NCBI GenBank assembly: GCA_947450365.1
Contig: CANFVE010000002.1
Location: 1-64,000, forward strand
Reading direction: 5' to 3'
From: Cytophagaceae bacterium
GTDB lineage: Bacteria > Bacteroidota > Bacteroidia > Cytophagales > Spirosomataceae
Length of the DNA: 64,000 bases
In this document: in pieces, positions 29,863-47,978 of the stretch
Layout of the letters: each line of letters opens with the position of its first letter
Numbering within the stretch: position 1 is the stretch's first letter
Position numbers and translations under genes: made by a program
Notes under the pieces: model-generated
Told to the model about the DNA's origin: nothing
Database searches by the model: none
What the model saw: only the letters and a program-made list of their open reading frames with translations

Positions 29863-30570
29863 TTAATTTGTACGAAATCCATACACCATGGAATAGGAAC
29901 TTTGGGTTCCATCGCTGGTTTTGATGCACCAATAATAGGTGCTTGCTGCGTTTACATTGACCGTAAGAGATGCGGTCGTTGATTTAATGGAAGTGACACT
30001 TCGGTTTGTGACTTTGGCTACATCGGTATCGATGAAAATTTCATAGCTTAGTGTTTTGCTATCAGGATCTGAACCTAACCAGGTTAAATTCACCTTTCCT
30101 CCTATGGCGCTGATGGATGAGCCCGATGTGGGATTAATTGCCGTAGCTGGAAAAGGGGCGTAAGTTGATGTACCATCGCCGGCTAAATAGAATTTCCAAA
30201 CGGCACTGGCGGCAGTTTCTTTGACTTTGTTGGATTTGGAGATGATTTGCCAACTATACGGTACGCCTTTGTTCAAGGTCATTGTCGTCTTATCCCCATT
30301 CACGGTTTTCGTTGAACTCGTGAAATTCAACAGATTCGTCACTACCAAATCGTAATAATCCGTATCCTTTGCCACGCCCCACGAAAAACTTACATCGGCC
30401 CAGGTCTGACTTACACTTTGACCTTCCAAACAAACCGTTCCATTCGCCGGTAATGCCAACGTCGCCGCGACGGGAGGAGGCGATGTCGTCACGGGAACCA
30501 CATTTTCCCCACCTGATGAACAAGCGAAAAACCACAGACTCATGAAAACCATGATGGCTATATGTTTCAT
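29863..30570 (-). CDS. Lipoprotein with Ig/FN3-like domains
   Basis: Lipobox-like FFACSSG; two Ig-like beta segments (NPTSGSSISAIGGKVNLTWLGSDPDSKTLSYEIFIDT). Confidence 0.6.
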   Translation of the reverse strand: MKHIAIMVFMSLWFFACSSGGENVVPVTTSPPPVAATLALPANGTVCLEGQSVSQTWADVSFSWGVAKDTDYYDLVVTNLLNFTSSTKTVNGDKTTMTLNKGVPYSWQIISKSNKVKETAASAVWKFYLAGDGTSTYAPFPATAINPTSGSSISAIGGKVNLTWLGSDPDSKTLSYEIFIDTDVAKVTNRSVTSIKSTTASLTVNVNAASTYYWCIKTSDGTQSSYSMVYGFRTN

Positions 30571-32660
30571 ATTTTCGCGATTTTAATGCGTTGGTCTACC
30601 GAATTTCCTTTGACCCGAATGAGGTAGGTACCCACGGGAACTTGGCTGATGTCTAGGGCAACTTCTCTACTTCCATCTACCGGAAAGAGGCCTGTTTGAA
30701 TGCTTGCTCCTTGTAGGTCATGTATTGCGATATCCACCAGCGTATCTAAGCCATGAACTAGGATGTGGAATGGACCTGTGGTTGGATTCGGATAGGCTTT
30801 GACTTCTTCTGAGAAGAAAAATTCTTCCACATGCATGCCTTGGCAAGATAGGTCGGTACTGACTTGGATTTTCACGGCACCCGTAGGTAAACTTCCGGTC
30901 CAAAGGGGACCATTGACCCGATACGTGGCTTCATTGACCTGCACGCGGAATTGAGTAGCGCCGGAAAGGCTTAGGTCGATGGTTTGATTTCCGAGGTTAA
31001 TCACGGATTGGACGCTTAAGGTTGCCGGTTCGGTGATTTTTAGGTCAAAGGCTTGTTGGTAATTCTTTTGCCCGTCGATTGTCGCCACGACCGAATAATC
31101 CCCGATGGCCAAACCTGCCACGCTTGCGGAATTTGTACCTTTTGGAATCGCTATGGTTTTTTCAAATTTATTAGGCCCTTTTACGCTGAGTATATAGGCA
31201 TAATTACTATTCTCTATCGTACATTTAATGGCTCCATTGCTCGTGCCTGCGCAAGTAGTGGCGATGACTTCGACTTTGTAATTTGTGGCAGGGAGGGTGA
31301 AAACGGGGCAACCGTTAATATCCACCAGGGTACCCAACGGTGTATCTGGGCATAAATCCAATGGGTCCGCCACTCCATCTTCATCCGAATCGATGTAAGC
31401 GGCCTTGATGATTGGAATCGATGCGAAATCCGTATATAAAATGTCTTTCACCAAGGTTTTGCTTCCGCCCATCCATTGGGTAATGAGGGAACTATATACT
31501 TGACGGAAGTCAAATTGCCGATCCATTTCATATGAATAATTCGTATTTGAAGGTATCAGGGGATTTACGCCGCCGACGGTCGGGTCTAATTTATTACCAA
31601 AAAGGATGATGGGAGAAACGGATCCATGGTCAGTTCCACCGGTTCCGTTGGAATGCACGGTCCGACCAAATTCTGAAATACACATCCCCACCACCCGGTC
31701 CGATTTGTTCATGGCATCCAAACTTTTCATGAATGCGGCGACGGCATCGTCGATTTCCTTTAACAAATTCGCGTGGGTCCCTTTGGTTTTATCTCCTGAT
31801 TCCACCTGATTTCCATGGGTATCGAACCCGCCGATTTCAACTTTATAAATACGCGTATTCAAACCTCCTGAAATTAATTTGCTGACGATTTTTAATTGGT
31901 CCGCCAAATTAGACCTCGGAAATGTATAATCTGTTCCTTTTCCATAGGTTTCTTTCAATACTTTCCCGTAGGCGTTGGATTGCTTGCCCATGAGTTGCAA
32001 GTATTTTAATTTTTCACCCAAAGGCGTGGAAGGATAGCTATTATCAAACTCGTTGATAATCTCATAAAAATCACTCGGATTCGATGAAACTACGCTCGTA
32101 AAGGCCTTATTTCCGGTGAATAAAAGGGAAGAGTTCCAGCCGATTTCGAGGGCTAAGGGGTGTGGATACAGTTCCGTCGGGTAGGCATCCGGAAAATTCG
32201 GGTGTTTTTGTTCAAGGTAGCGGGCGGCCCAACCGCTATTCACGTATTTCAAGGCATCCGAACCTGAATTCCAAATATCCATTGAACGGAAGTGGGAATA
32301 ACTTTGGTTTGGGTAACCGACCGACTGTATGACCTTCAAGCGGTTTTCCGTATGCAAGGATTGCAATCCTGTTAATGAAGGATGAAGTCCTAGGTCGGTG
32401 CCTTTCAGGGGCAGAATTTTGTTGTCCGGCAGCATGACCGTGGACCGAATTTTATTTAATTCGGACAACTGGGTCATCGGGATTACTGTATTCAAGCCAT
32501 CATTTCCACCACTCATTACAATGATGACGATGATGTTTCCTTCGGCGACGGTATTCGCTAATAGGCTTTGGGATCCAAAAGATTCGGAGGGAAAAGAAGA
32601 AAACAGCGCCGGCATTGCTGCTGCGTGGGCCATTTGATGTATAAATTGTCTTCTTTTCAT
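30567..32660 (-). CDS. DUF1501-domain protein with TSP type-3-like repeat and C-terminal T9SS sorting domain
   Basis: MKRRQFIHQMAHAAAMPALFSS leader; IIVIIVMSGGNDGLNTVIPM; DSDEDGVADPLDLCPDTPLGTLVDINGCP; C-terminal KAYPNPTTGPFHIL...GTYLIRVKGNSVDQRIKIAKI. Confidence 0.88.
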   Translation of the reverse strand: MKRRQFIHQMAHAAAMPALFSSFPSESFGSQSLLANTVAEGNIIVIIVMSGGNDGLNTVIPMTQLSELNKIRSTVMLPDNKILPLKGTDLGLHPSLTGLQSLHTENRLKVIQSVGYPNQSYSHFRSMDIWNSGSDALKYVNSGWAARYLEQKHPNFPDAYPTELYPHPLALEIGWNSSLLFTGNKAFTSVVSSNPSDFYEIINEFDNSYPSTPLGEKLKYLQLMGKQSNAYGKVLKETYGKGTDYTFPRSNLADQLKIVSKLISGGLNTRIYKVEIGGFDTHGNQVESGDKTKGTHANLLKEIDDAVAAFMKSLDAMNKSDRVVGMCISEFGRTVHSNGTGGTDHGSVSPIILFGNKLDPTVGGVNPLIPSNTNYSYEMDRQFDFRQVYSSLITQWMGGSKTLVKDILYTDFASIPIIKAAYIDSDEDGVADPLDLCPDTPLGTLVDINGCPVFTLPATNYKVEVIATTCAGTSNGAIKCTIENSNYAYILSVKGPNKFEKTIAIPKGTNSASVAGLAIGDYSVVATIDGQKNYQQAFDLKITEPATLSVQSVINLGNQTIDLSLSGATQFRVQVNEATYRVNGPLWTGSLPTGAVKIQVSTDLSCQGMHVEEFFFSEEVKAYPNPTTGPFHILVHGLDTLVDIAIHDLQGASIQTGLFPVDGSREVALDISQVPVGTYLIRVKGNSVDQRIKIAKI

Positions 32661-32661
32661 G

Positions 32662-34410
32662 TTAAAATAGGTGGATTTCGCCCATTTGGAATAGGGCACC
32701 AAACATATTTTGAATGCGATTGGATATTGTCGACCGGGTTTCGTCGGTCGGTTTTGTCAGATGGCTTTGGTACAATTGCGTAAAATAGGTTGGAGTTACG
32801 CCATCAAGTGCCTTTGTTCGAATCCGTAAACGAGCCGCTTGTGAAATAGGTACGCTCATCAATCGATTGATGGTTTCGTCGACAACATCATCAATGTTGC
32901 TCGGATTTTTTAAACTTGCCAAATATTTAATGGCGTCAATTTGAATATTCACATTTCCTTGTGAATCACCATTCCCTATCCATTTTCCCCATCGACCAAT
33001 GCTATTTCCCCAATTGGCGCGTTTGGCAACCGTATCTGAATTAATCCAAAATAAATCATACACGGGTGCTTGGTAATAGGCAGGCCAACCGGATACGCTT
33101 GGTGGATCGGTAAAATTCAGGCCAATATTGCCCAATTCCCATTGAAATGACCGGTATTTATAAAAATCTCGATTTAAGTCTGTGGTGTAACGGGCAGGGA
33201 TATCGGAAGCTAAATTGAAATTGATATAATTGAATTCAAATTCCTTCATGATTCCAAAACTGAATTCAAGCGGGGATTTGATCATGGAATTGTAAAAAGA
33301 ACTGTCAAAGAAATGAGCGCTACCTAGAAGGGCTTTTAGCGGTACCATTAACTCGAAATTATTTTTTCGTAATAGATCGGCCATTGGCGTGATAACATTT
33401 TTTTCTACGGTGTCATCGATGATGGGATAACAGAAAAATTGGTATAAACGTCGGCATAAATACATCGCACATTCGTTGGTTCCAAAAATCATGTCCAAGG
33501 CATCGTCCAATTCTTTCATACCATCTTGCCCTTGACGGCCTTTGATTACCCGATTGCCATAAAATGCGGAGAACTGTTTATCACCAGAATCGTGGTTCCA
33601 GGCATTGAAAATATTTGTAATGGGTCCCATTTTGTCATTTTTACTTGGGACATAATATTGCCAACCCACAAGTAAACGAGCCATTTCAGTCACATCTTCT
33701 TCCGTATATTTCGAATTGGGCCCTTTCCCTACCGTAAATAATTCTTGAAGTTCCCGCGCGTAATTTTCGTCGGGTTTATATTTTTGGCTGTTTTGAAGAT
33801 TTAAAAAATCGAGCATGAGTGGGTCGAGTGTGACCTTATACATGATGGATTTGTAACTACCAAAAGCAGAATCAAAAAGCATTTTATAATGCTGATAGAG
33901 CATCTTCACGCTTCCCTTGCCGCAGGCCAATAAATTATGTAAGAAAAACACCATGCGCCAGTGAATGGAGGTGTTTTGCTCAATCATATTTTTGAATAAC
34001 CAGGAATCATGGGATTGGTGGCGTGGCCAAGGGGAGCCGTTGGGTTCCGGAGCAAAGACATATTCTTGTCCGGCGGGGATGTAATAATGGCCTTGTTTTT
34101 CGGTTTCTTCTTTGGTGATTTCGTAATCGTAATCGTTGACCGGTACCTTCGGAGTTTTGTCGGCTTTGAAAATTAAATCCAACGATTGACTCAGGCTGAG
34201 CGAGGAAATTTCTTGTAGATGTTTACTCGAAAAACCTGTTAAAACACGATTTAACAGATGTTTTTTTTGGGCATTTTCCCATATTCCCGTATAGGGTTCG
34301 AGACCACTAGTTACCTGTGTTCGAGAGGCTCTAGCTTGCTCTATTTGTTTTAAGTCAACTTTTTCTTTGTAGAACTGGTATACCAAATCTACTGAATTTG
34401 GTTTTTTCAT
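32662..34410 (-). CDS. DUF1800-domain protein
   Basis: YARELQELFTVGKGPNSKYTEEDVTEMARLLVGWQY, NECAMYLCRRLYQFFCYP, DPPSVSGWPAYYQAP. Confidence 0.9.
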   Translation of the reverse strand: MKKPNSVDLVYQFYKEKVDLKQIEQARASRTQVTSGLEPYTGIWENAQKKHLLNRVLTGFSSKHLQEISSLSLSQSLDLIFKADKTPKVPVNDYDYEITKEETEKQGHYYIPAGQEYVFAPEPNGSPWPRHQSHDSWLFKNMIEQNTSIHWRMVFFLHNLLACGKGSVKMLYQHYKMLFDSAFGSYKSIMYKVTLDPLMLDFLNLQNSQKYKPDENYARELQELFTVGKGPNSKYTEEDVTEMARLLVGWQYYVPSKNDKMGPITNIFNAWNHDSGDKQFSAFYGNRVIKGRQGQDGMKELDDALDMIFGTNECAMYLCRRLYQFFCYPIIDDTVEKNVITPMADLLRKNNFELMVPLKALLGSAHFFDSSFYNSMIKSPLEFSFGIMKEFEFNYINFNLASDIPARYTTDLNRDFYKYRSFQWELGNIGLNFTDPPSVSGWPAYYQAPVYDLFWINSDTVAKRANWGNSIGRWGKWIGNGDSQGNVNIQIDAIKYLASLKNPSNIDDVVDETINRLMSVPISQAARLRIRTKALDGVTPTYFTQLYQSHLTKPTDETRSTISNRIQNMFGALFQMGEIHLF

Positions 34411-34479
34411 ATGTTATAACGTATTCAAATATAAATGATTAATTTCGAAAAAAAATCATTTTCATTGAAAGGTCGATTT

Positions 34480-35013
34480 ATGAAGAGAGATCAATTCCTC
34501 CGGAAAACATGTCCCGCATTTATATTGACCGCCTTGGCGAGTTCGGAATTTTTGACCGCGTGCAAGGGTTCGGCTGAAGGAGAAATAAGCCCAGCGGGTT
34601 CGACGCCGCAACCTGTAACTACCCAAGAAGAAAAAGATTATTTGGCTCGAAAAAAAGCCATCGGGACGAAGGGATATTTACAGGAAAATTCAGTGGTTTA
34701 TGTCGACCTCGCGAATGCCACCTATGCAGCTTTGTTGACCGCCGGAAATTTCGTAAACGATCAGATGAATGGGGTTTTATTGCTTCGAAAGGACGAAACG
34801 AACCTGTTAGCTTTGGATAATTGCTGCCCGCATTTAGGTAGCCGCAACCAATGGTCTTATGCCGCCAATAAATTCACTTGTGCCAACCACGGAAATTCCT
34901 ATGGCACCGGAACTGGTCAAGTCGCGAATTGTAATTCCAACTCAGCTTTTGGCAACTTAAAAGCCTATAAAACTACCTTGTACAAGGATTTATTAACGAT
35001 TACCTTTGCCTAA
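34480..35013 (+). CDS. Rieske [2Fe-2S] domain protein, exported
   Basis: Rieske ligand pair CCPHLGSRNQW...FTCANHGNSYGTGTGQV; N-terminal leader with lipobox-like LTACKG. Confidence 0.88.
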   Translation: MKRDQFLRKTCPAFILTALASSEFLTACKGSAEGEISPAGSTPQPVTTQEEKDYLARKKAIGTKGYLQENSVVYVDLANATYAALLTAGNFVNDQMNGVLLLRKDETNLLALDNCCPHLGSRNQWSYAANKFTCANHGNSYGTGTGQVANCNSNSAFGNLKAYKTTLYKDLLTITFA

Positions 35014-35016
35014 GGC

Positions 35017-35772
35017 TTATTTCAAACGCCCGTCTTCCACTAGGATTTCATAGACATAACCTGCCCCAAAATCCTTATTTAACACCAATTTTCCTTCAAA
35101 GGCCACCTGAGCACCTAAAGGAATGTTTTCATTCGAGGTGATAGTTAAATCACATAATTTTCCATTGAATTTGGTTCCATCTTGAATGTGATACCAGTTT
35201 TTATTCATGATGCCATAGTTCGCCTTAACGCAAGTTCCTGCCACAAAAACCGTTTTGCCTTGATATTTTTTACTTTTCCCAAAAAGGTCTTTTAAGGCGA
35301 GGGTACCGGCGACTGGTTTAAAATCCTTGGGCGTGGGGGCGGTTTCCGGTCCGTGGTTATGTCCAGGCATTTCGGCAATCGAACCCGGATGCGCGGCGGC
35401 ATTGATGATTTCGGAAACGAGGTAAATTTTATCAAATACACGTTTATGTTCTACGCTTTCAAAATTGGTCTTTAATAATCCGCCTTTGTAGAAATATTGT
35501 TCTCCTACTTTAGCCTCTAATTTTGCAGTTGCAATCCAAAAAGTCTCCGCGTTTTCTTTGACCTTTAAATAGGTATATCGTTCCGCTTGTAGGACTTCGG
35601 TGACCTGAACTTGGTGCATGTCGCCCATTGGATTTTTGGCGGTAACAGGAACGCTGCTGCTCGGGGTGGCTGGACTTTCCGTTTTTGTATCTGCGACGAT
35701 GACCTTAGGTTTAGAATCGCAGGCGATTAGGGCCCATGTGGCGAAGGAAAGAGTATAAATATAATTTTTCAT
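35017..35772 (-). CDS. Lipoprotein with two OB-fold-like domains (NrfJ-like), at the end of the cytochrome operon
   Basis: Lipobox-like LIACDSK; QVQVTEVLQAERYTYLKVKENAETFWIATAKLEAKVGEQYFYKG; KNWYHIQDGT...VAFEGKLVLNKDFGAGYVYEILVEDGR. Confidence 0.65.
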   Translation of the reverse strand: MKNYIYTLSFATWALIACDSKPKVIVADTKTESPATPSSSVPVTAKNPMGDMHQVQVTEVLQAERYTYLKVKENAETFWIATAKLEAKVGEQYFYKGGLLKTNFESVEHKRVFDKIYLVSEIINAAAHPGSIAEMPGHNHGPETAPTPKDFKPVAGTLALKDLFGKSKKYQGKTVFVAGTCVKANYGIMNKNWYHIQDGTKFNGKLCDLTITSNENIPLGAQVAFEGKLVLNKDFGAGYVYEILVEDGRLK

Positions 35773-35776
35773 ATGC

Positions 35777-37414
35777 TTATTTTTTATTTCTAAATCGTTG
35801 GGTTAAGGTAATATAATAGCGCCCATAATTCACGGTAGGTTCAAATGTACCCTCATAGGAAAGCATGAGAGAAGTCCGTTTTTTTGTGTACATATTGGCT
35901 GAAAAACTGATGATGTCTTGTAACATGTTCGGTTGTTCTTTATCTACAAAGGTATAATCTACTTTTCGATAACTTAGTTCTGTAGATAAAAATCCATTGA
36001 ATAAATCTTTATTTAGGGTGACGCCGTAAATGGTTCCGTTGAAATAATAGGTATTCATCCAGTTCGCATTTAGGTTCAACATGGCTTTGAGTCCAGGCAA
36101 TTGGGAAAAGCTGAGGTTGGCAACATAGTTTTTTGTGGGTTCCGTTTTGTTGGATTGGTAGCGGTAAAAGCCGGACCCATTGGCATATATGAATTTGGAA
36201 ACTTTATAATTGACTTGTAGGCGGAGACCTTGGCGAGTTTCTTGGTTGATCAATTGATCCAAATAGCTCCGATAGGTTTCATAATAAATAACATTTCTCC
36301 GATTGTCATAGGAAGTAGTAAAACTAATCCGCTGGCTGGGTTTATAGCGAAGAGATACATAGGTGGATGTTAGATTAATTTGGTTGGTAGCTACACTGTC
36401 GATGCGTTGGTATAAATCCACTTCGACGGAATAGAAGAAATTTAGGTTTTTAATCAATGAATTATTATGCTGAAAATAGGCGAATCGACGGTCGGTTGCC
36501 GCTTGGTTTTTTTGTTCGGCGATGGCCAAACTACTTTGCATGGGCCCCTGTTTATTTTCAATCTCATGGGCGATGAATCCTCCGAATTGAATCAGGTTGG
36601 GGTTAAAGCCGTAATCATTTTGATCGGGTCGGGTACCTCCGAAAGCCCCAAAGCCTATTTTTTTTAGTTTAGTTTCAACCTGTATTCCGTCAATGGCCCC
36701 CATATTGGCCATTTGTAGGCTTAGTTTTCGACCTACCGAAACGATAGTTCGCTTGCCAACTTCATGGCTGAGCGCCAAGGAATAGATTTTGAAATCGTCG
36801 CTATTAGTCAATGAATTTTGATTTTCACCCAGTCGTTTGGAATAGATGACATAGGTTTCAAAGGAGGTTCTTCCGCCATTGATTCGGTTAATATCAAAGG
36901 AAAATGTGGATCGAATTCGGTCAAAATCCCGTCCGGCGATGTCCCTGCTTCCATTGGTTGATACAGAAATACGTCCGTCAAATGTTTGTTTCCGTTCGAT
37001 GGGGACTTCTACTTTTGGTACGTCTTCTTTGGGGCTTGCAAGTTTAGGGGCCTCTAGTTTTGCTTCGGCTACGATTAATCGATCAGGTTCTGCGATGCCA
37101 AGAGGCGTTGCTTTTTCATGAATTTCTAACTGAAATGCCACGGGCGTACCTATGGGGATTGTTTCTTTGGTTAGCGGAATGGTGACACAGGATTTGGAGG
37201 AAATGGATTCGACCAGGAGGGCTTTTTTCCAGGTATTTTGAAGAAAGATTTCGAGAGTATCTTTCACTTGGATGTTTTTGGTGGATTCGAAACGGACATA
37301 TACTTGTTGGATCGATACATAAGACACCTTTCCCTCGACCCGCGAAAACTCTTGGGCTTTCAGGATACTGCTGAATAAAACGAACAAAAGAATGAATATT
37401 CTCTGTTTATTCAT
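35777..37414 (-). CDS. Predicted outer-membrane beta-barrel protein next to multiheme cytochromes
   Basis: Likely start at M14 of the ORF; signal peptide MNKQRIFILLFVLFSSILKAQ; short N-terminal beta domain, then alternating amphipathic strands over about 370 aa. Confidence 0.6.
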   Translation of the reverse strand: MNKQRIFILLFVLFSSILKAQEFSRVEGKVSYVSIQQVYVRFESTKNIQVKDTLEIFLQNTWKKALLVESISSKSCVTIPLTKETIPIGTPVAFQLEIHEKATPLGIAEPDRLIVAEAKLEAPKLASPKEDVPKVEVPIERKQTFDGRISVSTNGSRDIAGRDFDRIRSTFSFDINRINGGRTSFETYVIYSKRLGENQNSLTNSDDFKIYSLALSHEVGKRTIVSVGRKLSLQMANMGAIDGIQVETKLKKIGFGAFGGTRPDQNDYGFNPNLIQFGGFIAHEIENKQGPMQSSLAIAEQKNQAATDRRFAYFQHNNSLIKNLNFFYSVEVDLYQRIDSVATNQINLTSTYVSLRYKPSQRISFTTSYDNRRNVIYYETYRSYLDQLINQETRQGLRLQVNYKVSKFIYANGSGFYRYQSNKTEPTKNYVANLSFSQLPGLKAMLNLNANWMNTYYFNGTIYGVTLNKDLFNGFLSTELSYRKVDYTFVDKEQPNMLQDIISFSANMYTKKRTSLMLSYEGTFEPTVNYGRYYITLTQRFRNKK

Positions 37415-37419
37415 AGGTG

Positions 37420-40400
37420 TTAGCTTCGTCCAGTCGGGTGGCATGAATAGCAAGCGGTGCTTACATACGTATACCCTTTTACTTGACGGTGATTACTATC
37501 GGTTGTTGTTTTTTTATGACAATTCAAACAATTAAAGGTGCTAAAATTGCCAGTGGTGGTATGGCATTCATTGCATTTGGTCCAAGTACCTCGGTGTGTC
37601 CCGCTGTAGATTGGGAAATATTGGGCATCATGGTTAAATGTGCTAGGTTTCCAGGCTGTTTGGCTGTGACAAGAGGCACAGTCGGTCGGGAATCCTGCCG
37701 TGGCATGATTCGGCGTGGCCGTATTGTAATTAGTCGCATGGCAGCCATAGCAGGTGGTAGGCGCGGTGCTGATATTTCCTGTTTTGTGACATGCGGCGCA
37801 ATTGGAGGCAATGGCGGCATGGGCGCCTTGCAAGGGATAGACGGTTGAATGGTTGAAGGTACTTGGTCTCCAGCCTGGGTTGGTCGTATGACAAGAAGCG
37901 CAATTGGTCGAAATGCCTAAACTCGCATGGGGTGGACTTTTGGATGCTATAAAAGCGGCATTGTGACAGGCGTTGCAATCCGTCGGGGTATTATTAAATT
38001 GTCCATTTTTGTGACAGGAGGTGCAGTTATTCGCGATAGTTGCGTGTGCGCCGGTCAAGGGATAAAAGGTACTATGATTAAAGGTACTTGGCCGCCAGCC
38101 GGGGTTTGTTGTGTGGCAAGAGGCACAATCTGTGGAGAACTTTCCTGTCACGTGGTTCGGATTTTTAGATCCTTGATAGGCGGCATTGTGACAGGAATTA
38201 CAGTCCTTAGGCGTATTACTAAATTGGCCATTGATGTGACATGCAGTACAATTGCTTGCAATGGTTGCATGTGCTCCGGTCAACGGATAAATGGTATTAT
38301 GATTAAAGGTACTCGGTCTCCAGCCAGGATTGGTTGTGTGACATGTCGCGCAATCGGTCGAGAATTTAGATGTCACATGGTTCGGGTTTTTAGATGCTTG
38401 ATAGGCGGCGTTGTGACATGAATTACAGTCTTTAGGGGTATTGCTGTATTGGCCATTGATGTGACAGGCGGTACAATTATTCTTAATGGTCGAATGGGCC
38501 CCGGTTAACGGGAAGAAGACATTATGGTCAAAGGTAGCTGGTCTCCAGCCTGGATTGGTCGTATGACAGGACGCGCAATCCGTGGAGAATTTCGCTGTTA
38601 CATGGTTCGGATTTTTAGAGGCTTGGTACGCGGTATTGTGACAGCCATTACAATCTTTAGGGGTATTTTTAAAGATACCGCCTTTGTGGCAAAGGGTGCA
38701 GTTCGTTGCGATGCTGGCATGCGCCCCGGTCAATGGATATATGTTGTTATGGTTAAATGTACTCGGTCTCCAACCTGGATTTGTCGTGTGACAGGAAGCA
38801 CAATCTGTCGAAAATCCAGACGTCGCGTGATTCGGATTTTGAGCAGCTTGATAGGCGGCATTGTGACAGGCGTTACAGTCAGTTGGCGTGGATTTTACAT
38901 CCCCTGTTTTGTGACATGCGGTACAATTCGCAGCCACGGTCGCATGGGCACCTGTGAGCGGATAGACGGAATTGTGATTAAAGTTACTGGGTCTCCAGCC
39001 TGGATTTGTACTGTGACATGTGGCACAATCTTTCGAGAATCCGGCCAATGCATGGTCGGGATTTTTTGCACTTTGGAAATTTGCGGTGTGACAGGCGGCG
39101 CAGTCGGTCGGCGTGGTTTTTACATCCCCAGTTTTATGGCAGGCGGTACAATTATTTGCCACGGATGCATGTGCACCGGTGAGCGGATAGACTGAATTAT
39201 GATTAAAGGTACTGGGTTTCCAGCCCGGATTTGTACTGTGGCAGCTGGCACAATCTTTTGAGAATCCTGCCAATACGTGGTTTGGATTTTTCGCACTTTG
39301 GAAATTGGCGTTGTGGCAGGCGGCACAGTCGGTCGGCGTGGTTTTCACATCCCTAGTTTTATGGCAGGCGGTACAATTATTTGCCACGGATGCATGTGCA
39401 CCGGTGAGCGGATAGACGGAATTATGATTAAATGTACTAGGTTTCCAGCCCGGATTTGTGCTGTGGCAGCTTGCACAATCTTTCGAGAATCCGGCTACTA
39501 AGTGATCGGGATTTTTGGCGCTCTGGAAATTGGCCGTGTGGCAGGCGGCGCATTCTTTCGGTGTATTTTTAGTGCTGGAATTCGTATGGCATTTGGCACA
39601 ATCATTCGCCACCGCAGCATGTCCGCCGGTGAGTGGATAAAATTGATTATGGTTAAAGGTACTAGGTCGCCATCCTGGAGCTGTGGTATGGCAGGTCATA
39701 CAATCGGTCGATAAGTCTAAGGTCACGTGATTCGGTTTGCTCGACTTTTTGTAGTTCTCGCTGTGACATGAATAACAATCTTTGGGTGTGTTTTTATAGG
39801 TGCCATTTTTGTGACATTCCTTACAACTCACATTGCTGTGCGCACCCGTTAAGGGATAAAATTCCTGATGCGGTGGGAATTTGGCCGGGGACCAGCCTGG
39901 ATTTGTTGTGTGACAACTCGCACAATCCGTAGAAAGCTTTAAATCCTTGTGATTTGGATTTAAGGCTTTGTTGAAATTATCCTGATGGCAGGCAAAGCAG
40001 TCCGTCGGGGTATTGCTATAATTTCCCCCTTTGTGACATGCCGCACAATTATTAGCAATCGCCTTATGGGCTCCCGTTAACGGAAATATAGCATCGTGAT
40101 TTGGGAATCTTGCAGGTGCCCAGCCTGGGTTCGTGGTATGGCAAGAGGCACAATCGTTCGATAAATTTAATTTGATGTGGTCTGGATTTTTAGCCGCTTT
40201 GAAATTTGCTGCATGACAACCCGCACATTCCCGAGGCGTATCTCCATAATGCGTACCCGTATGACATTTCTTACAATCCTGTGCTATGGCAGCATGCGCA
40301 CCGGTCAGTGGGTAGACGGCATCGTGATTTGCGAATTTATTGGTGTTCCAATCGGTGGTTGCGGTATTGTGACAAGAGGCGCAATCCGTCGACATGTTTA

Positions 40401-40911
40401 ATTTAACGTGATCCGGGCTTTTGGTATTTTTAAAATCTTGGTTGTGACAGTCCACACATGTCGACCCAATCGGATTGAACCGAATTTTACTATCCGCCTT
40501 GTGACATTCCGTACAGTTTACGGTTTTATGTACGCCCACAAGCGGGAAGGAGGTTTTGTCGTGCATTTTGGCAATGTTCTCTACGACCCAACTTTGTGTA
40601 CTGTGACATCGTGCGCAATCATTCCCCACCGTCTGATTGTGCATATCTTGGTGGCAAGTAACGCAGGATGAAGATGTTTTTTTAAAGCTTAAATCTGTGT
40701 GACAGGCCTTGCATTGAATAATTTTATGTTGGCCTTCCAAACCAAATCCTGTCGACTCATGCCTGAATTTCGAAGTTTTACTGAAGGTCCAAGCCCCTGA
40801 ATCGTGGCATTGGGCACAATCCATTTTAAAAGCCTTCCCATGAGGAGACTGCCCTTGGAGTCCAAAGGTCACTAAAACCAAGAAAGAGATTATAAATGAC
40901 AATCTATGCAT
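37420..40911 (-). CDS. Giant multiheme c-type cytochrome, 46 CxxCH motifs by hand count
   Basis: Signal peptide MHRLSFIISFLVLVTFGLQGQ; 46 CxxCH in 1163 aa; repeating unit FSTDCASCHTTNPGWRPSTFNHN..YPLTGAHA.I..NCTACH..G...NTP.DCN.CHNAAYQASKNPNHVT.K. Confidence 0.95.
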   Translation of the reverse strand: MHRLSFIISFLVLVTFGLQGQSPHGKAFKMDCAQCHDSGAWTFSKTSKFRHESTGFGLEGQHKIIQCKACHTDLSFKKTSSSCVTCHQDMHNQTVGNDCARCHSTQSWVVENIAKMHDKTSFPLVGVHKTVNCTECHKADSKIRFNPIGSTCVDCHNQDFKNTKSPDHVKLNMSTDCASCHNTATTDWNTNKFANHDAVYPLTGAHAAIAQDCKKCHTGTHYGDTPRECAGCHAANFKAAKNPDHIKLNLSNDCASCHTTNPGWAPARFPNHDAIFPLTGAHKAIANNCAACHKGGNYSNTPTDCFACHQDNFNKALNPNHKDLKLSTDCASCHTTNPGWSPAKFPPHQEFYPLTGAHSNVSCKECHKNGTYKNTPKDCYSCHSENYKKSSKPNHVTLDLSTDCMTCHTTAPGWRPSTFNHNQFYPLTGGHAAVANDCAKCHTNSSTKNTPKECAACHTANFQSAKNPDHLVAGFSKDCASCHSTNPGWKPSTFNHNSVYPLTGAHASVANNCTACHKTRDVKTTPTDCAACHNANFQSAKNPNHVLAGFSKDCASCHSTNPGWKPSTFNHNSVYPLTGAHASVANNCTACHKTGDVKTTPTDCAACHTANFQSAKNPDHALAGFSKDCATCHSTNPGWRPSNFNHNSVYPLTGAHATVAANCTACHKTGDVKSTPTDCNACHNAAYQAAQNPNHATSGFSTDCASCHTTNPGWRPSTFNHNNIYPLTGAHASIATNCTLCHKGGIFKNTPKDCNGCHNTAYQASKNPNHVTAKFSTDCASCHTTNPGWRPATFDHNVFFPLTGAHSTIKNNCTACHINGQYSNTPKDCNSCHNAAYQASKNPNHVTSKFSTDCATCHTTNPGWRPSTFNHNTIYPLTGAHATIASNCTACHINGQFSNTPKDCNSCHNAAYQGSKNPNHVTGKFSTDCASCHTTNPGWRPSTFNHSTFYPLTGAHATIANNCTSCHKNGQFNNTPTDCNACHNAAFIASKSPPHASLGISTNCASCHTTNPGWRPSTFNHSTVYPLQGAHAAIASNCAACHKTGNISTAPTTCYGCHATNYNTATPNHATAGFPTDCASCHSQTAWKPSTFNHDAQYFPIYSGTHRGTWTKCNECHTTTGNFSTFNCLNCHKKTTTDSNHRQVKGYTYVSTACYSCHPTGRS
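37666..40383 (-). repeat. 12 x about 225-bp tandem repeats coding three-heme (75-aa) modules
   Basis: The CASCH codon blocks opening the first and thirteenth modules lie 2703 bp apart (about 12 x 225). Adjacent units near 39085-39309 and 39310-39534 are nearly identical in DNA. Confidence 0.9.
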
Positions 40912-42728
40912 TCGTATTTCTCAATTTTATACAGTCGGATACTCGGGTTATTGGCTAATGTCGCTTTGTGACATTTCGCGCAGGATACTAATTTATGTTG
41001 GCCATCAAGGCGGTAATTCGTTGTATTATGGTCGAATTTTGTGACAGTCCACGCATTTACCGTGTGACATACCGCACAATCCGTTCGACCATTGTGCTCA
41101 AATTGTTTTCCGTGCACGTCTTGGTGGCAAGTCGCACATTGCTGGCTTAAGCCTTTGAATAATTGTTCCAAGCCCTGTTCGGTTTTAACCCAATGACAGG
41201 ATTTGCATGCCACGCGGCTGTGACCTCCAGCGAGTGGGAATTTGGTTTTGCCATGGTCGAATTGTATACTAGACCATTCGGAACTTGTATGGCAAGTCGC
41301 GCAGGATTGCTTTGGGTAATAGGAAGAATCTATTTTTCCTTCATGCACATCGCTATGGCAGGCAACACAAGTCGTTTTCAAGTTCGCGAAAACCCATTTA
41401 TTACCTGTTTTATGGCAAGAAAAACAAGGCTGTGCCACATGGGCGCCGTCCAGCGGAAAGGCGCTCTCCTGATGTTTTTCAATGGTATAAAGTGATGGCG
41501 AAAAGGACTCTACTTGATGGCACGAAGCACAATCTGGATATTTCGTTTTCTTGATCGCAAAATCCCCATTATGCCCATCTTTGTGACAGTCCATGCAGGT
41601 ATTATGCGCTAATTTATCCGTAAAATCAGCTTTGTGACATTGCTTGCAATCAACTTGGATGTGTTTGCCTTTTAATGGATAATCTGTTTTATCGTGGTCG
41701 AATTTTCCGACGAATTTCTTATTTTTCAATAAAAAGCTCGTTTGATTATGGCATGATTTACAATCATTTCCCAATTTACCTTCATGAACATCTTTGTGAC
41801 ATGTCACACAGGAAATGTTTTTCTTGTTTTTGAAATCTTGAAAAGAGGACGATTCATGACATTTTTTACAGGCAATATCATCGTGTTTTCCTTCTAATGT
41901 AAAGCCCGTTAAGCTGTGGTTAAATCCTTTGCTAGGGGATATTTTGTGGAAGGAATCGCTGGTGTGGCAACTTTTGCAATTCGTCCCAAATTCACCTTTA
42001 TGAACATCTTTGTGGCAACTCGCACATGAGACATACGAAACTCCTTTATATTTTGTCCAGGATTTTCCGTTTCGCATTTCGGTTTTGTGGCAAGATTCGC
42101 AGGATACTTTTTGATGCGCGCCATCCAAAGGAAAATCCGCTTGGTCGTGGTTGAATAATTTAGCCCCTTTGAAATCCTGCGTATCGTGGCATGTTGCGCA
42201 GTCGTTGGAAAGTGTTTTTTGATGCACGTCTTCATGACAGGATGCGCATTGGGTACTTAAACCCAAATACGTGTTGGGTTTTTTCTTGAGAATCGGATTT
42301 GCTATGTGGGAAGGCTGATGACATTCCTTGCAATTCTGGGCTTTTGTTTTGTGTGCTCCCTTGAGTTCATAGCCGGTAGAATTGTGGTTGAATGTTTTTT
42401 TGTCTAAGCGAATGAGTTCAAAATTTTCGCCATGATGTTCATTATGGCAGGAAACACATTCCTTATTTTTCACGAGCGCGGACACGTGGAAACCTTTGTT
42501 TCGGGCGATTTGCTGCCCTAAATCTTTATGACACGTCAAACATTTTTGATTTACTACCTTATTTCCGATGGTGTGACATTGCGTACAATTCGCAATACCA
42601 TCCAAACCCGAATGGGCTTTCGATAATTTGCCGGGAGACAATTGGGCATAACTCATTTGAGCCAAGAGCATCAGGCAAAGCAGGAGCAAGCCGAATTCGA
42701 GGTCCATATGTTGGGCTATATATCTCAA
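40890..42728 (-). CDS. Multiheme c-type cytochrome (cytochrome c3/c7-like modules), 23 CxxCH motifs by hand count
   Basis: 23 CxxCH; recurring FxHxxTxFxLxGxHxxxxCxxCH and CxxCHxDVHxGxxGxxCxxCH patterns; signal peptide near the N-terminus. Confidence 0.95.
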   Translation of the reverse strand: MRYIAQHMDLEFGLLLLCLMLLAQMSYAQLSPGKLSKAHSGLDGIANCTQCHTIGNKVVNQKCLTCHKDLGQQIARNKGFHVSALVKNKECVSCHNEHHGENFELIRLDKKTFNHNSTGYELKGAHKTKAQNCKECHQPSHIANPILKKKPNTYLGLSTQCASCHEDVHQKTLSNDCATCHDTQDFKGAKLFNHDQADFPLDGAHQKVSCESCHKTEMRNGKSWTKYKGVSYVSCASCHKDVHKGEFGTNCKSCHTSDSFHKISPSKGFNHSLTGFTLEGKHDDIACKKCHESSSFQDFKNKKNISCVTCHKDVHEGKLGNDCKSCHNQTSFLLKNKKFVGKFDHDKTDYPLKGKHIQVDCKQCHKADFTDKLAHNTCMDCHKDGHNGDFAIKKTKYPDCASCHQVESFSPSLYTIEKHQESAFPLDGAHVAQPCFSCHKTGNKWVFANLKTTCVACHSDVHEGKIDSSYYPKQSCATCHTSSEWSSIQFDHGKTKFPLAGGHSRVACKSCHWVKTEQGLEQLFKGLSQQCATCHQDVHGKQFEHNGRTDCAVCHTVNAWTVTKFDHNTTNYRLDGQHKLVSCAKCHKATLANNPSIRLYKIEKYECIDCHL

Positions 42729-44050
42729 ACCTTTTTTGATTTCATGGTATACCCAAAACGCTGTGTAATGTCAATTCCTGCCTTTTTTAAAAATTCCGTA
42801 GGCAATTCCCCCCCTGCAAAAATGAAAACCATGTCATTGGCAATCGTTTCTGTTCGGTCGAACAGGTTCATGACCACATCCTTTTCCCGTATTTCCTGAA
42901 CCGTACTCGCGTATTCCATTCTGATTTTGCCGGATGCAATGGCCTCCTCAATGTTCACGAGGTTTTTTGGTTTTAGTCGATTAAAATGTTCGCTCCGGTA
43001 GGAGAGGGTTACTCGATTTTCATCGGCCAACAACAACGCGTTTTCAATCGCCGAATCCCCGCCACCCACAACTAAAATATCTTTTCCCTGAATCAATTCA
43101 GGTTCTAGCAAGCGATAAGCCACTTTTTCTAATCCTTCTCCAGCGACGTTTAATTTTCGAGGGCTGCCGCGCCGACCGATGGCCAACAACACCTTTTGTG
43201 CCGTAATTTTTTCCCCATTTTCTGTTAACACCACAAAGCGATGATCTTCCTGTACGATTTCGCTGACTTTTGTATGTTCTTGAATGTGGATTTGGTTTTC
43301 CTTAGTCACTTTTTTCCATAAGTCCAAAAGTTCTGTTTTACTCGTTTCTGTCAATTTTATTTTTCCATAACCAGGCAAATCCATCGGTGAAGTCATCACC
43401 ACTTTTGCCCGAGGGAAATTAAATACCGTTCCTCCCACAGAATCTTGTTCCAAGGTCTTAAAACGTAAACCCATTTTTTTCGCCTGCAGCGAAGCCGAAA
43501 TCCCAGCAGGCCCCGCGCCAATAATCAGGACATCCACATCCGCCTGAATCTTGGCATCGATGGTTTCATGAATATTTTCCATGGCTTGTTTGCCCTGTTC
43601 CACGCTATTTTTAATTAAACCCATGCCCCCTAATTCTCCAGCGATAAACATGCCCGAAACGTTCGTTTCAAAATTTTGGTTGACATGTGGCAAATCCACC
43701 CCCCGCTTTTCCGTACCTATTTTGAGCGAAATTGCCTCCACGGGACAGGCATGAAAACAAGCCCCATGGCCTACGCAACTTGACGCATTGACCAAAACGC
43801 CCTTCCCATTCAAAATCCCAATGATGTCTTTTTCTGGACAGGCCGATACGCAGGCAGCCCCTCCAATGCAAATATTTGGGTCAATGAACGGATATAAACT
43901 GACAGGTTCATATACCCCGTTTTCTTTCGCTTGCTGGATTTTCTGCTCCACCACCTTGGATTTGTTCGATTTGATTTTGACATAGAAAAGCATCACCCCT
44001 GCGCAGAGCAATATTCCCAAACCATAAATCACAATTTCTTCGACTAACAT
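42725..44050 (-). CDS. Membrane-anchored Fe-S/FAD-NAD(P) oxidoreductase
   Basis: N-terminal TM helix; CIGGAACVSACP and CVGHGACFHACP; VLIIGAGPAGISASLQA (FAD) and ILVVGGGDSAIENALLL (NAD(P)); no CxxC redox pair in the FAD domain. Confidence 0.85.
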   Translation of the reverse strand: MLVEEIVIYGLGILLCAGVMLFYVKIKSNKSKVVEQKIQQAKENGVYEPVSLYPFIDPNICIGGAACVSACPEKDIIGILNGKGVLVNASSCVGHGACFHACPVEAISLKIGTEKRGVDLPHVNQNFETNVSGMFIAGELGGMGLIKNSVEQGKQAMENIHETIDAKIQADVDVLIIGAGPAGISASLQAKKMGLRFKTLEQDSVGGTVFNFPRAKVVMTSPMDLPGYGKIKLTETSKTELLDLWKKVTKENQIHIQEHTKVSEIVQEDHRFVVLTENGEKITAQKVLLAIGRRGSPRKLNVAGEGLEKVAYRLLEPELIQGKDILVVGGGDSAIENALLLADENRVTLSYRSEHFNRLKPKNLVNIEEAIASGKIRMEYASTVQEIREKDVVMNLFDRTETIANDMVFIFAGGELPTEFLKKAGIDITQRFGYTMKSKKV

Positions 44051-44056
44051 CCTATT

Positions 44057-44902
44057 TTAAAAAATCCAACGGTATCCAAAAGCCAACGTTATTCCCACGT
44101 GTACTAACATGATCACCAACATCACAATCGCAAATGGCAAGTGAATCACATGCCAATAATTAAATAATTTTTGCATCACATGTAAGCGCTCAATTTTCTG
44201 CTTCATCCCTAATTCATGACTCACCAATTCCATGACATGTATCAAATTTTCACGGTCTACCCGTGCCTTGATTAATTGTTTACGTATGGCTCTTTTGGTT
44301 TGCCAATCCGCATAAAACTGATAAAACAAATTATTCCCTTCGCCTGAACGATTAATCAATTCCGTGATATGTTGCCATTTTTCAGCGCCTAAAGCCTTTT
44401 CCAACATAACTGAAAATTCACCTCGCATTTCACTGATTTCATGTAGGCTCAATTCCCGACCTTGCAAGGTTCTCGGAATTTGTAAATAAATAAAACGACC
44501 CACCACCCCACTGGCAACCACCGCTACCATACTCCAGAAACTAATGGACACCAATCCACCGAATTTGAAGGACGTATGAAACAATACCAAAATAGGCCCA
44601 AGTGTGCACAAAAAAATATGGAATTCCAGCCAATGTTTCAGCAGCCAAATGCCCGAAAGCGATCGCATGTATTTTCGTGCCTGATAGCCAAAAACCCCCA
44701 CGACCATCATCAGTGTGCCAACGATTCCCATCCCATGTCCCAGTGGACCGCTCGGTTTTAAATTGGTATGATCCGGGTGATAAAAACGCTCCTCGATGGC
44801 CGTTTGGTAATAGGGCGAACCGATGTAAAAAAGGTAGCAAGTTACCCCAATCACAATGCTGGCCATAGTTCCCAAATAGATACGATGTGCGGTTTTATTC
44901 AT
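44057..44902 (-). CDS. Polytopic membrane protein, probably cytochrome b-like
   Basis: Several TM segments; helix-borne His (LLKHWLEFHIFLCTLGPILVLFHTSFKFGG; NYWHVIHLPFAIVMLVIMLVHVGITLAFG). Confidence 0.55.
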   Translation of the reverse strand: MNKTAHRIYLGTMASIVIGVTCYLFYIGSPYYQTAIEERFYHPDHTNLKPSGPLGHGMGIVGTLMMVVGVFGYQARKYMRSLSGIWLLKHWLEFHIFLCTLGPILVLFHTSFKFGGLVSISFWSMVAVVASGVVGRFIYLQIPRTLQGRELSLHEISEMRGEFSVMLEKALGAEKWQHITELINRSGEGNNLFYQFYADWQTKRAIRKQLIKARVDRENLIHVMELVSHELGMKQKIERLHVMQKLFNYWHVIHLPFAIVMLVIMLVHVGITLAFGYRWIF

Positions 44903-44903
44903 G

Positions 44904-47900
44904 TTAGGATTTCATTTGTTTGTTGAAATTCCGATACGCAAAAGCACTTAAGATCACCAAGGTAATCGTTGTATAATACACCGCCGGCGGCATAGGCACC
45001 GGATCACCAGCCGCATAGGAATGCAAGCCAGATAAATAATAATTAACCCCTAAATAGGTCATAATCACCGTGGCAAAGCCAAATAGGGATGCAAAATTAA
45101 AGGCGAAAATTCCCTGTAATTTGGGGATAAAACGCATGTGCAAAATGAAAGAATAGACCAAAATCGTCACCAAAGCCCAGGTTTCTTTCGCATCCCAGCC
45201 CCAATAACGGCCCCAAGATTCATTTGCCCAAACACCTCCTAAATAGGTTCCAATGCTAACCATGGCAAGACCGCCCAACAAGGTAATTTCACTGATAATC
45301 GTCAATTCTTTGATTGTGCGTAAAGTATTGGCTTTGTTTGCCGGTTTCATCAAAATCATGAGGACTAAATTCAACATGCCTAATACCGCACCCAGCAACA
45401 AAAATCCATAGCTTCCCGCCTCCAAAGACACGTGAATGGTAAGCCAATAAGACTTTAACACAGGTACCAGTGGGGTAATTTCGGGGTCTAGCCAAGACAT
45501 GGATGCCACAAATAAGATCGTAGCCGCAAGCGTCGCTGTCGCCGCTAAACCCCCTAAAGATTTTCGAGAAAAGAGGGTTCCGGCCAGCATCGTTGTCCAA
45601 CCGATGTAGATCATGGATTCATAACCATTCGACCAGGGCGCGCGGCCAGAGACATACCAGCGAAGCCCCAAGCCCAACGTATGAAAGAAAAATCCCAATA
45701 CCATCGCATACAGCGCTATGCGTGTCCAACGCGCTCGTTTGTCGGTTTTTTTCACCGTCATGTATAAAAAGCCACCCGTCAGGACTAAACATAAAATGCC
45801 ATAATAGCCCTTCAAGCGATTGAAAACATCCAATGAATTCAAAAATAACTCAGCTTTAACCTTTTCATCAGAGGGTAAAATATCCGGATTTTCGGTCTTC
45901 TGGAGATCTGAGATTTGACTTAAAAAGCCATTCGCTTGCTGGAAATCCCCTGAATTCACCCCTTCTGAAACCGCATGCAGGTAATTGCTGAACATGGTTT
46001 GCATATCCGGATTCGGATCGGCTGGCGAGCTCCATGTATGTGTGCTGTCGCTCGGATTCGGAAACAGGCGGAATATGCTTCCGGAGAAAATCATATTCAC
46101 GATATTCACTTTTTCGTCCAATTTAATCAGTGCCTTTTCCTTGGTTCCTTGTTCCTTAGGTATCATCGATTGGGCCGCGCTGACTTGTTCTTGTAACAGA
46201 TATTTTCCGTCTGCCCCAAAAAACGACGCATAGCTCGCCATGTTCGATTCGATGTGAAGGATTTGTTTGATTTCAGGATTATCCGGCACATAAATCAGAT
46301 TCGTTTTTTCCCAAGTCGCCGGATTCATGATCATCGACAAAATGATTTGATCAGCGTTTTGGTCGAAAAGATGTTCGGTGCGCGCGATTTTACGAAGCAA
46401 TTCTCCATTGTAACTGTTCATCGGTTTAATCCGACCATTATGGTCTTGCACCAAAATCTTACCAAAATTCGTCGCATGTTCAAGCGGAATGGCGGTGGTC
46501 ATTTGTCCAAACGTCAAGGTCGAAATCGATAAACCAAGCCCCAGCATCACCACGCGCAAGGCTGCGTTTTGGCTTTCTTTTAATTTGGCCATCAAATGCG
46601 AGAAGCGACTTTTCTTATCCACAAAAGACATCATGAGCCCGACGGTCAATAAAAAGTAGCCCAAATAGGAAATCCAGGTTCCCCAGAAATCATGGTTGAC
46701 ACTCAAATACGTCCCTAATTCATCCTGATCAAAGGACGATTGGAAAAAACGATAGCCCTCATAGTCCAAAATGTGGTTCATGTAAATGCGCTGATCGAAT
46801 TGAACTGCCTTTGCTGGATCCTGCAAAGTCACTTCGGAGGCATAGGAAGAAGGATTTTCTGTACCGGGATAGCGTTCCAAAATAAAATCTTTGCAAAGAA
46901 TCGAAAAAGGAAGGGTTTCTACTTTCGCGCCATATTGCAGGCTCATTTTCATGTCCCCAAAATCCAAACTCTGTGGCTGACCTTCGTCGCCTTTTTGACC
47001 GATCAGCATCGTTTTTTGGGTTTTCCCTTGGACGCTCACGGTGATTTGGGCGCCTACTTTGCTTTCATTGGTGATTTTAGCTTGTTCGGATTCCATGGAC
47101 ACGCGGCCTTTGGGCATGAAATCTCCTACGACAAAACTCGCGCTTCCCATCGTATACAGGGAACGAAGCATCAGCGGATGTGGCGTTCCCCCGGCTAAGT
47201 CGGAAACTTGTTGAGTCGCCATAACCCGTTGGTTTATACTTTCTTGCGTCACAAATTGTAAGTTTTGCCCATCGTAAGACACGTTAAATGCGCCAGGAAT
47301 AAATGCCTCGCTAAAATTGTACAAGAGTCCATGCCACTCACTTTGTTCCCCTTTTTTGAGGAAATATTCCTCGCGGCCCATGTTACCTGCGATGACGATT
47401 TTCAACACAGGAACTCCATTTGAGTCTTCAATGATTTTCTCTTTTGGATTGGGAATGATGTCCGTTACTTCGAGGTCAATGACTTGATTTTCAATTTGGT
47501 ATGAACTTTTAAACTGATGATTTCCCAAACTCGAAAATAGTACGGATTCAGCAAAGGAATAGGTTTTGTCTCCGAGAACAATTTGGCATTTTAAAAAATC
47601 TTCAGCGGATAAATACACGTGGCTACTTTCTCCTTCACGGATGTGCATCATGCCCTCCGTACCGAAATAGCGGGTCACCGCAGCTCCGATGACGATAATG
47701 ATGATGGCGCTGTGAAAGCAAAGAGAAGCCCATTTTTTCATGGGGATCATTCGGTAGCGAATGATATTCATGGCGATACTTAGGCAGAAAAGTACTAAAA
47801 GTGCTTCGAACCAATGGCTTTTGAAAATGACGTCTTGTGCGGAACTTGTACCAAAATCATTTTCGATGAACGTCGCGATTCCGATGGCAGCGGCGAATAA

Positions 47901-47978
47901 TAAAAAGTACATGCCCGCGGCACGGGTAGAGGTTAGGCTGTTGATGAATTTTTTCAAAAAAGAGAGTAGCATGAACAC
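44904..47978 (-). CDS. Fused ResB-CcsA cytochrome c maturation (System II) protein
   Basis: N-terminal ResB-like TMs and periplasmic domain; C-terminal CcsA with ANESWGRYWGWDAKETWALVTILVYSFILHMR (WWD-type heme-handling motif) and conserved TM His. Confidence 0.92.
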   Translation of the reverse strand: MFMLLSFLKKFINSLTSTRAAGMYFLLFAAAIGIATFIENDFGTSSAQDVIFKSHWFEALLVLFCLSIAMNIIRYRMIPMKKWASLCFHSAIIIIVIGAAVTRYFGTEGMMHIREGESSHVYLSAEDFLKCQIVLGDKTYSFAESVLFSSLGNHQFKSSYQIENQVIDLEVTDIIPNPKEKIIEDSNGVPVLKIVIAGNMGREEYFLKKGEQSEWHGLLYNFSEAFIPGAFNVSYDGQNLQFVTQESINQRVMATQQVSDLAGGTPHPLMLRSLYTMGSASFVVGDFMPKGRVSMESEQAKITNESKVGAQITVSVQGKTQKTMLIGQKGDEGQPQSLDFGDMKMSLQYGAKVETLPFSILCKDFILERYPGTENPSSYASEVTLQDPAKAVQFDQRIYMNHILDYEGYRFFQSSFDQDELGTYLSVNHDFWGTWISYLGYFLLTVGLMMSFVDKKSRFSHLMAKLKESQNAALRVVMLGLGLSISTLTFGQMTTAIPLEHATNFGKILVQDHNGRIKPMNSYNGELLRKIARTEHLFDQNADQIILSMIMNPATWEKTNLIYVPDNPEIKQILHIESNMASYASFFGADGKYLLQEQVSAAQSMIPKEQGTKEKALIKLDEKVNIVNMIFSGSIFRLFPNPSDSTHTWSSPADPNPDMQTMFSNYLHAVSEGVNSGDFQQANGFLSQISDLQKTENPDILPSDEKVKAELFLNSLDVFNRLKGYYGILCLVLTGGFLYMTVKKTDKRARWTRIALYAMVLGFFFHTLGLGLRWYVSGRAPWSNGYESMIYIGWTTMLAGTLFSRKSLGGLAATATLAATILFVASMSWLDPEITPLVPVLKSYWLTIHVSLEAGSYGFLLLGAVLGMLNLVLMILMKPANKANTLRTIKELTIISEITLLGGLAMVSIGTYLGGVWANESWGRYWGWDAKETWALVTILVYSFILHMRFIPKLQGIFAFNFASLFGFATVIMTYLGVNYYLSGLHSYAAGDPVPMPPAVYYTTITLVILSAFAYRNFNKQMKS

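Follow-up and report, generated by a model that had tools for sequence, protein, structure and literature searches.

The cytochrome operon and its neighbours

The window, i.e. the whole 64,000 nt stretch of Cytophagaceae DNA that was analysed, contains a minus-strand operon of seven genes, in the order CcsBA, five-TM protein, FAD/NAD(P) Fe-S protein, 23-heme cytochrome, 46-heme cytochrome, outer-membrane barrel and lipoprotein. The successive intergenic gaps are +1, +6, -4, -22, +5 and +4 nt. The fifth gene (37420-40911), whose minus-strand orientation had been left unstated in an earlier note on this DNA, encodes the 46-heme cytochrome, which is composed of a signal peptide, an N-terminal cap with six hemes, twelve modules with three hemes each and a C-terminal cap with four.

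The first gene (44904-47978, minus strand) encodes a CcsBA-type cytochrome c maturation protein of 1024 aa. Its match to the NCBIfam CcsB model (7e-51, 173 bits) lies slightly below the 188-bit cut-off, and is the only such match in the genome. The second gene (44057-44902, minus strand) encodes an inner-membrane protein of 281 aa with five transmembrane (TM) helices and two predicted b hemes. A W-X3-H-X13-H motif is found in this protein both at residues 91-109 (TM3) and at residues 250-268 (TM5), while the SGXXG motif on TM4 reads SGVVG (131-135); this set of motifs fits most of the homologues, the first W being absent in some of them.

The product of the third gene (42725-44050, minus strand) is a membrane-anchored FAD/NAD(P) oxidoreductase (Pfam Pyr_redox_3, 1e-44; Fer4_10, 3e-10), with an N-terminal TM helix (residues 6-24), two Rossmann motifs and two Fe-S motifs. 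It should be noted that the second Fe-S motif has the form CxxHxxCxxxCP in 107 of 107 homologues, with an invariant His where the second Cys would be expected, and that the corresponding place of the first motif is occupied by Cys in only 15 of the 107, and usually by Ser, Thr or Gly. From this conservation pattern, the Fe-S cluster would be an unusual one, possibly with a His ligand.

The 23-heme cytochrome (40890-42728, minus strand; 612 aa, 26.6 aa per heme) shares 22 nt with the 46-heme gene. Signal peptides were predicted for both cytochromes, and the 23-heme protein is probably periplasmic. Downstream of the 46-heme gene, the barrel gene (35777-37414, minus strand), for which the ATG at 37414 was chosen as the start over an upstream TTG, encodes a small N-terminal beta domain followed by 22 predicted strands, as counted from the DSSP output for an AlphaFold2 model with a pLDDT of 80.4. 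The best Foldseek matches of this model were outer-membrane barrels, with low TM-scores, and MtrB was absent from the top 50. The last gene (35017-35772, minus strand), also found in close relatives, encodes a lipoprotein with a GW domain (PF13457, 4e-7) and the lipobox LIAC.

Beyond the lipoprotein gene lie a small Rieske protein gene (34435-35013, plus strand) and, adjoining it, a DUF1800/DUF1501 pair (32662-34410 and 30567-32702, both minus strand), the latter of which has a type IX sorting tail. All three genes are retained in G010 and G005, two genomes of the same genus that have no cytochrome operon, and were therefore dropped as candidate members of the operon.

Modular structure of the 46-heme cytochrome

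Computational recounting of the 1163 aa product gave 46 CxxCH motifs, i.e. one heme per 25.3 aa, exactly as counted by hand in the earlier note. A scan of the whole 1163 aa revealed no cysteines outside these motifs and neither CX3CH nor CX4CH. Shuffling the protein 2000 times yielded on average 0.58 CxxCH motifs and never more than 4, and a chance origin of the 46 motifs was therefore discarded. The spacings between the hemes are 35-16-16-34-19-25 in the N-terminal part, twelve repetitions of (33-36)-16-(24-25) for hemes 7-42, and 35-15-26 at the C-terminus, which reproduces the division into 6 + 36 + 4 hemes proposed earlier. Likewise, the predicted repeat of three CxxCH per about 75 aa (225 bp) in about twelve copies was found as twelve modules of 74-77 aa, and the 225-bp period was picked up by Tandem Repeats Finder. 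Eight of the modules are exactly 75 aa long and share 55-95% mutual identity, and alignment of the modules showed that every one of them contains, in addition to its three CxxCH, three conserved extra histidines.

A gene so repetitive raises the question of whether its heme count might be an artefact of assembly, with repeats expanded or collapsed; indeed, in the relative G019 the contigs break within the array. The two most alike modules, however, share only 92% DNA identity, so that no identical copies existed to be collapsed, and the mean divergence between modules (pS 0.71 vs pN 0.20) indicates a real coding sequence under purifying selection. In addition, comparable arrays are present in genomes assembled as single contigs (43 hemes in G181, 28 in G291). 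It appears, therefore, highly improbable that the count of 46 is an assembly error.

The protein begins with the signal peptide MHRLSFIISFLVLVTFGLQGQ. Domain and signal scans found neither a lipobox nor a type IX tail domain, and its status as type IX cargo was dropped for lack of this domain; an extracellular location is nevertheless probable. A phmmer search of the PDB with the complete sequence gave no match, and AlphaFold2, supplied with 24 aligned sequences, produced a model with a mean pLDDT of 46 and a pTM of 0.23, which was left out of all distance and fold claims. As the earlier note had suggested, the module was also searched as a profile, and its 71 positions matched PDB 3ov0 at 5.5e-7, an entry that we take to be GSU1996, the dodecaheme nanowire cytochrome of Geobacter. 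Against family models, the 46-heme protein scored 179.6 bits with Pfam PF14522 (cytochrome c7/triheme; cut-off 24.8) and 17 bits with NCBIfam TIGR04257 (the GSU1996 family; cut-off 40). Both proteins are single chains of repeated three-heme domains, but GSU1996 has four domains with one His-Met heme each, whereas the present protein has twelve modules with three extra histidines each. In GSU1996, the three-heme domains form a continuous wire with edge-to-edge distances of 3-5 A (PMC10138318).

Length variation and distribution

Among 88 complete homologues, the heme number of the variable cytochrome ranges from 9 to 85, so that the 46 hemes of our protein, although very dense along the chain as the earlier note had emphasized, are mid-range for the family. 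In 77 of the 88, the number is of the form 3n+1. The nominal binomial p of 7e-26 overstates the significance of this rule, because the relatives share descent and are not independent. The partner cytochrome, in contrast, varies little: 93 of 96 homologues have either 20 or 23 hemes. Across the variable cytochromes the chain grows by 24.3 aa per heme, and the number of histidines outside the motifs rises with the number of hemes with a slope of 1.01 (r=0.99, 88 homologues). This supply of one extra histidine per heme implies bis-His ligation.

The exceptions to the rule include L089 and L150 (35 hemes each), L155 and L140 (27 each), L143 (24), L130 (30), L122 (39) and L063 (38); lost or variant motifs, sequencing errors, or paralogues with other caps are candidate causes. 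A 64-heme relative (L068:6768-11750, minus strand) has a different module spacing (34-22-21, about 77 aa), yet conforms to 3n+1.

To trace the origin of the modules, pairwise scores, with no tree, were compared for seven close relatives carrying 37 to 55 hemes. For modules one to three, the best match was the module at the equivalent position of another species in 16 of 21 cases; of the middle modules, 25 of 45 were closest to a sibling within their own protein. Gain and loss of modules thus seems to be mainly central. The length of the wire would evolve by whole three-heme modules gained or lost in the middle, with both end caps constant, plausibly because the caps dock to partner proteins.

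Of 396 Bacteroidota genomes sampled, 42 (about 11%) encode the five-TM protein, with the same core cluster at most loci and the FAD gene located either ahead of the cytochromes or behind the barrel. A scan of genome contigs detected at least 562 relatives; the 80 that were retained nearly all carry Bacteroidota titles, and include cultured Lacihabitans and Emticicia. In Emticicia oligotrophica DSM 17448, the complete cassette, with cytochromes of 23 and 40 hemes, is located on plasmid pEMTOL02. As this type strain is in culture, it can be used to test directly how electron transfer depends on the length of the wire.

In the host's own genus, the operon is present in 3 of 37 genomes, and CcsBA is confined to the same three. 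In the operon-free G010 the flanks are syntenic, with other genes in between. This pattern of presence and absence is that of an accessory cassette. Distant homologues of the five-TM protein (about 24% identity) are present on plasmids of Sphingomonadaceae and Methylophaga, in a smaller flavoprotein/7-heme cluster. On the Methylophaga and Rhizorhabdus plasmids, they have an NAD/FAD/2Fe-2S reductase on one side and a 7-heme cytochrome on the other, which supports the pairing of the five-TM protein with a pyridine-nucleotide reductase.

Relation to porin-cytochrome conduits and proposed function

Among known systems, the operon most invites comparison with PCC3, described as a set of four genes in Alpha-, Beta- and Gammaproteobacteria (He et al. 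2017, PMC5566968). The PCC3 membrane protein has about 300 aa and five TM helices, with SGXXG on TM4 and W-X3-H-X13-H on TM3 and TM5; the PCC3 cytochromes have medians of 34 and 21 hemes and 26 aa per heme, with a range of 22-39 aa per heme (PMC5566968). In the present operon, the gene for a 22-strand barrel (pLDDT 80) adjoins the multiheme cytochrome genes, the cytochromes have 46 and 23 hemes at 25.3 and 26.6 aa per heme, and the membrane protein (281 aa, five TM) has all three motifs. What is shared is thus a barrel, a very large repetitive cytochrome, a second cytochrome of about 21 hemes, a five-TM protein bearing this motif set and a density of about 26 aa per heme; what differs is the phylum, here Bacteroidota, and the additional FAD/Fe-S protein, CcsBA and lipoprotein. 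PCC3 is described with the larger cytochrome outside the cell and the smaller one in the periplasm, a placement that is probable for the present pair as well. Judged by these genomic criteria, the operon is PCC3-like, the likeness being to the published description of the proteobacterial PCC3.

MtrCAB and MtoAB also have a barrel flanked by cytochromes on either side, but the cytochromes of those conduits are decaheme. The PCC3 outer cytochromes of Gallionellaceae include proteins with 11, 12, 14, 15 and 17 hemes (PMC10734462), counts that depart from 3n+1. As regards cytochromes whose subunits polymerise into filaments, no entry named OmcS, OmcE or OmcZ appeared in the PDB sequence match lists.

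The three CxxCH and three histidines of each module, the 1:1 supply of histidines and the location in a porin-cytochrome operon bear out the earlier view of a repetitive, heme-dense electron carrier and not an enzyme. A role of the protein as an electron wire is well supported by its sequence features. The earlier interpretation, correct as to a repetitive carrier, overlooked the multi-gene PCC3-like conduit to which this carrier would belong, and of which we consider it likely to be the extracellular wire; the linear or superhelical rod with closely spaced hemes that the note proposed is a possible shape for it. PCC3 cytochromes have been modelled as long and mostly linear (PMC10734462).

A different use of the 46 hemes is conceivable, namely chiefly as a charge store, located in the periplasm or on the cell surface, with chain length tuning its capacity and not its reach. 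Such a capacitor role has been proposed in the literature for large cytochromes, and GSU1996 itself, with its three-heme domains, has been described as a periplasmic capacitor. The combination of constant end caps, a variable middle and an adjacent barrel gene is, however, better suited to a connecting element, and we regard storage as the main function as rather improbable.

If the protein is the outer wire of a conduit, the path of the electrons may be the following. NAD(P)H would reduce the membrane-anchored FAD/Fe-S protein at the cytoplasmic face, and the two b hemes of the five-TM protein, in a ferric-reductase-like arrangement, would pass the electrons over the inner membrane. The 23-heme cytochrome would ferry them through the periplasm to the barrel, and through the barrel the 46-heme cytochrome would conduct them outward to an acceptor, e.g. 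Fe(III) oxide or humic matter. CcsBA would meet the high demand for heme attachment.

As to the direction of this flow, export is favoured because the flavo-Fe-S partner is NAD(P)-linked. Alternatively, the wire could draw electrons from an outside donor, e.g. Fe(II), into the quinone pool, NAD(P)+ or O2 respiration; uptake is conceivable because PCC3 occurs in Fe(II) oxidisers, where it has been discussed as an iron oxidation route, and because two heme-copper oxidases are encoded by the host. The flavoprotein, which is NAD(P)-linked and outside the PCC3 set of PMC5566968, indicates instead NAD(P)H as the donor, and PCC3 itself is termed functionally untested in later work (PMC12442390). Uptake thus appears unlikely, albeit less so than charge storage, and export is the preferred direction.

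As a broader and more tentative proposal, Bacteroidota may possess an NAD(P)H-driven nanowire made of a single polypeptide, whose count of modules between constant docking caps (10+3n, about 10 to 85 hemes) would set its reach genetically, and whose genes would form a mobile cassette that brings along its own enzyme for heme attachment. Cytochromes of giant size had been reported before, from PCC3 as well as from Bacteroidota. What appears to be new is the assignment to an operon, the rule of three hemes for the length, the flavo-Fe-S partner and the plasmid-borne example in a cultured strain; for the first two, this is judged on a limited literature search. What is known of PCC3 conduits comes mostly from genomes, and the present data tie giant Bacteroidota cytochromes to a conduit of this kind and provide a simple rule for their length. 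A known kind of conduit would thus extend over Bacteroidota, whose members have related versions that are longer or shorter by entire three-heme blocks. This suggests widespread extracellular electron transfer in a phylum mostly regarded as one of polymer degraders.

Bacteroidota cytochromes with more than 100 heme sites were reported in 2024 from Saprospiraceae of activated sludge (PMC11495043). They resemble the present family in their phylum and in the very many heme sites per protein; in the parts of that report available to us, they are termed undescribed and are presented without an operon, partner genes or a module rule. Among our own loci of Bacteroidota/Saprospiraceae, L102, L092 and L097 encode 85, 82 and 76 hemes, respectively, in single ORFs of 1899-2140 aa. 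In one MAG of Saprospiraceae, the cassette occurs twice, on contigs L091 and L092; one of the very large cytochromes has 82 hemes, and the other, which is cut off, at least 72.
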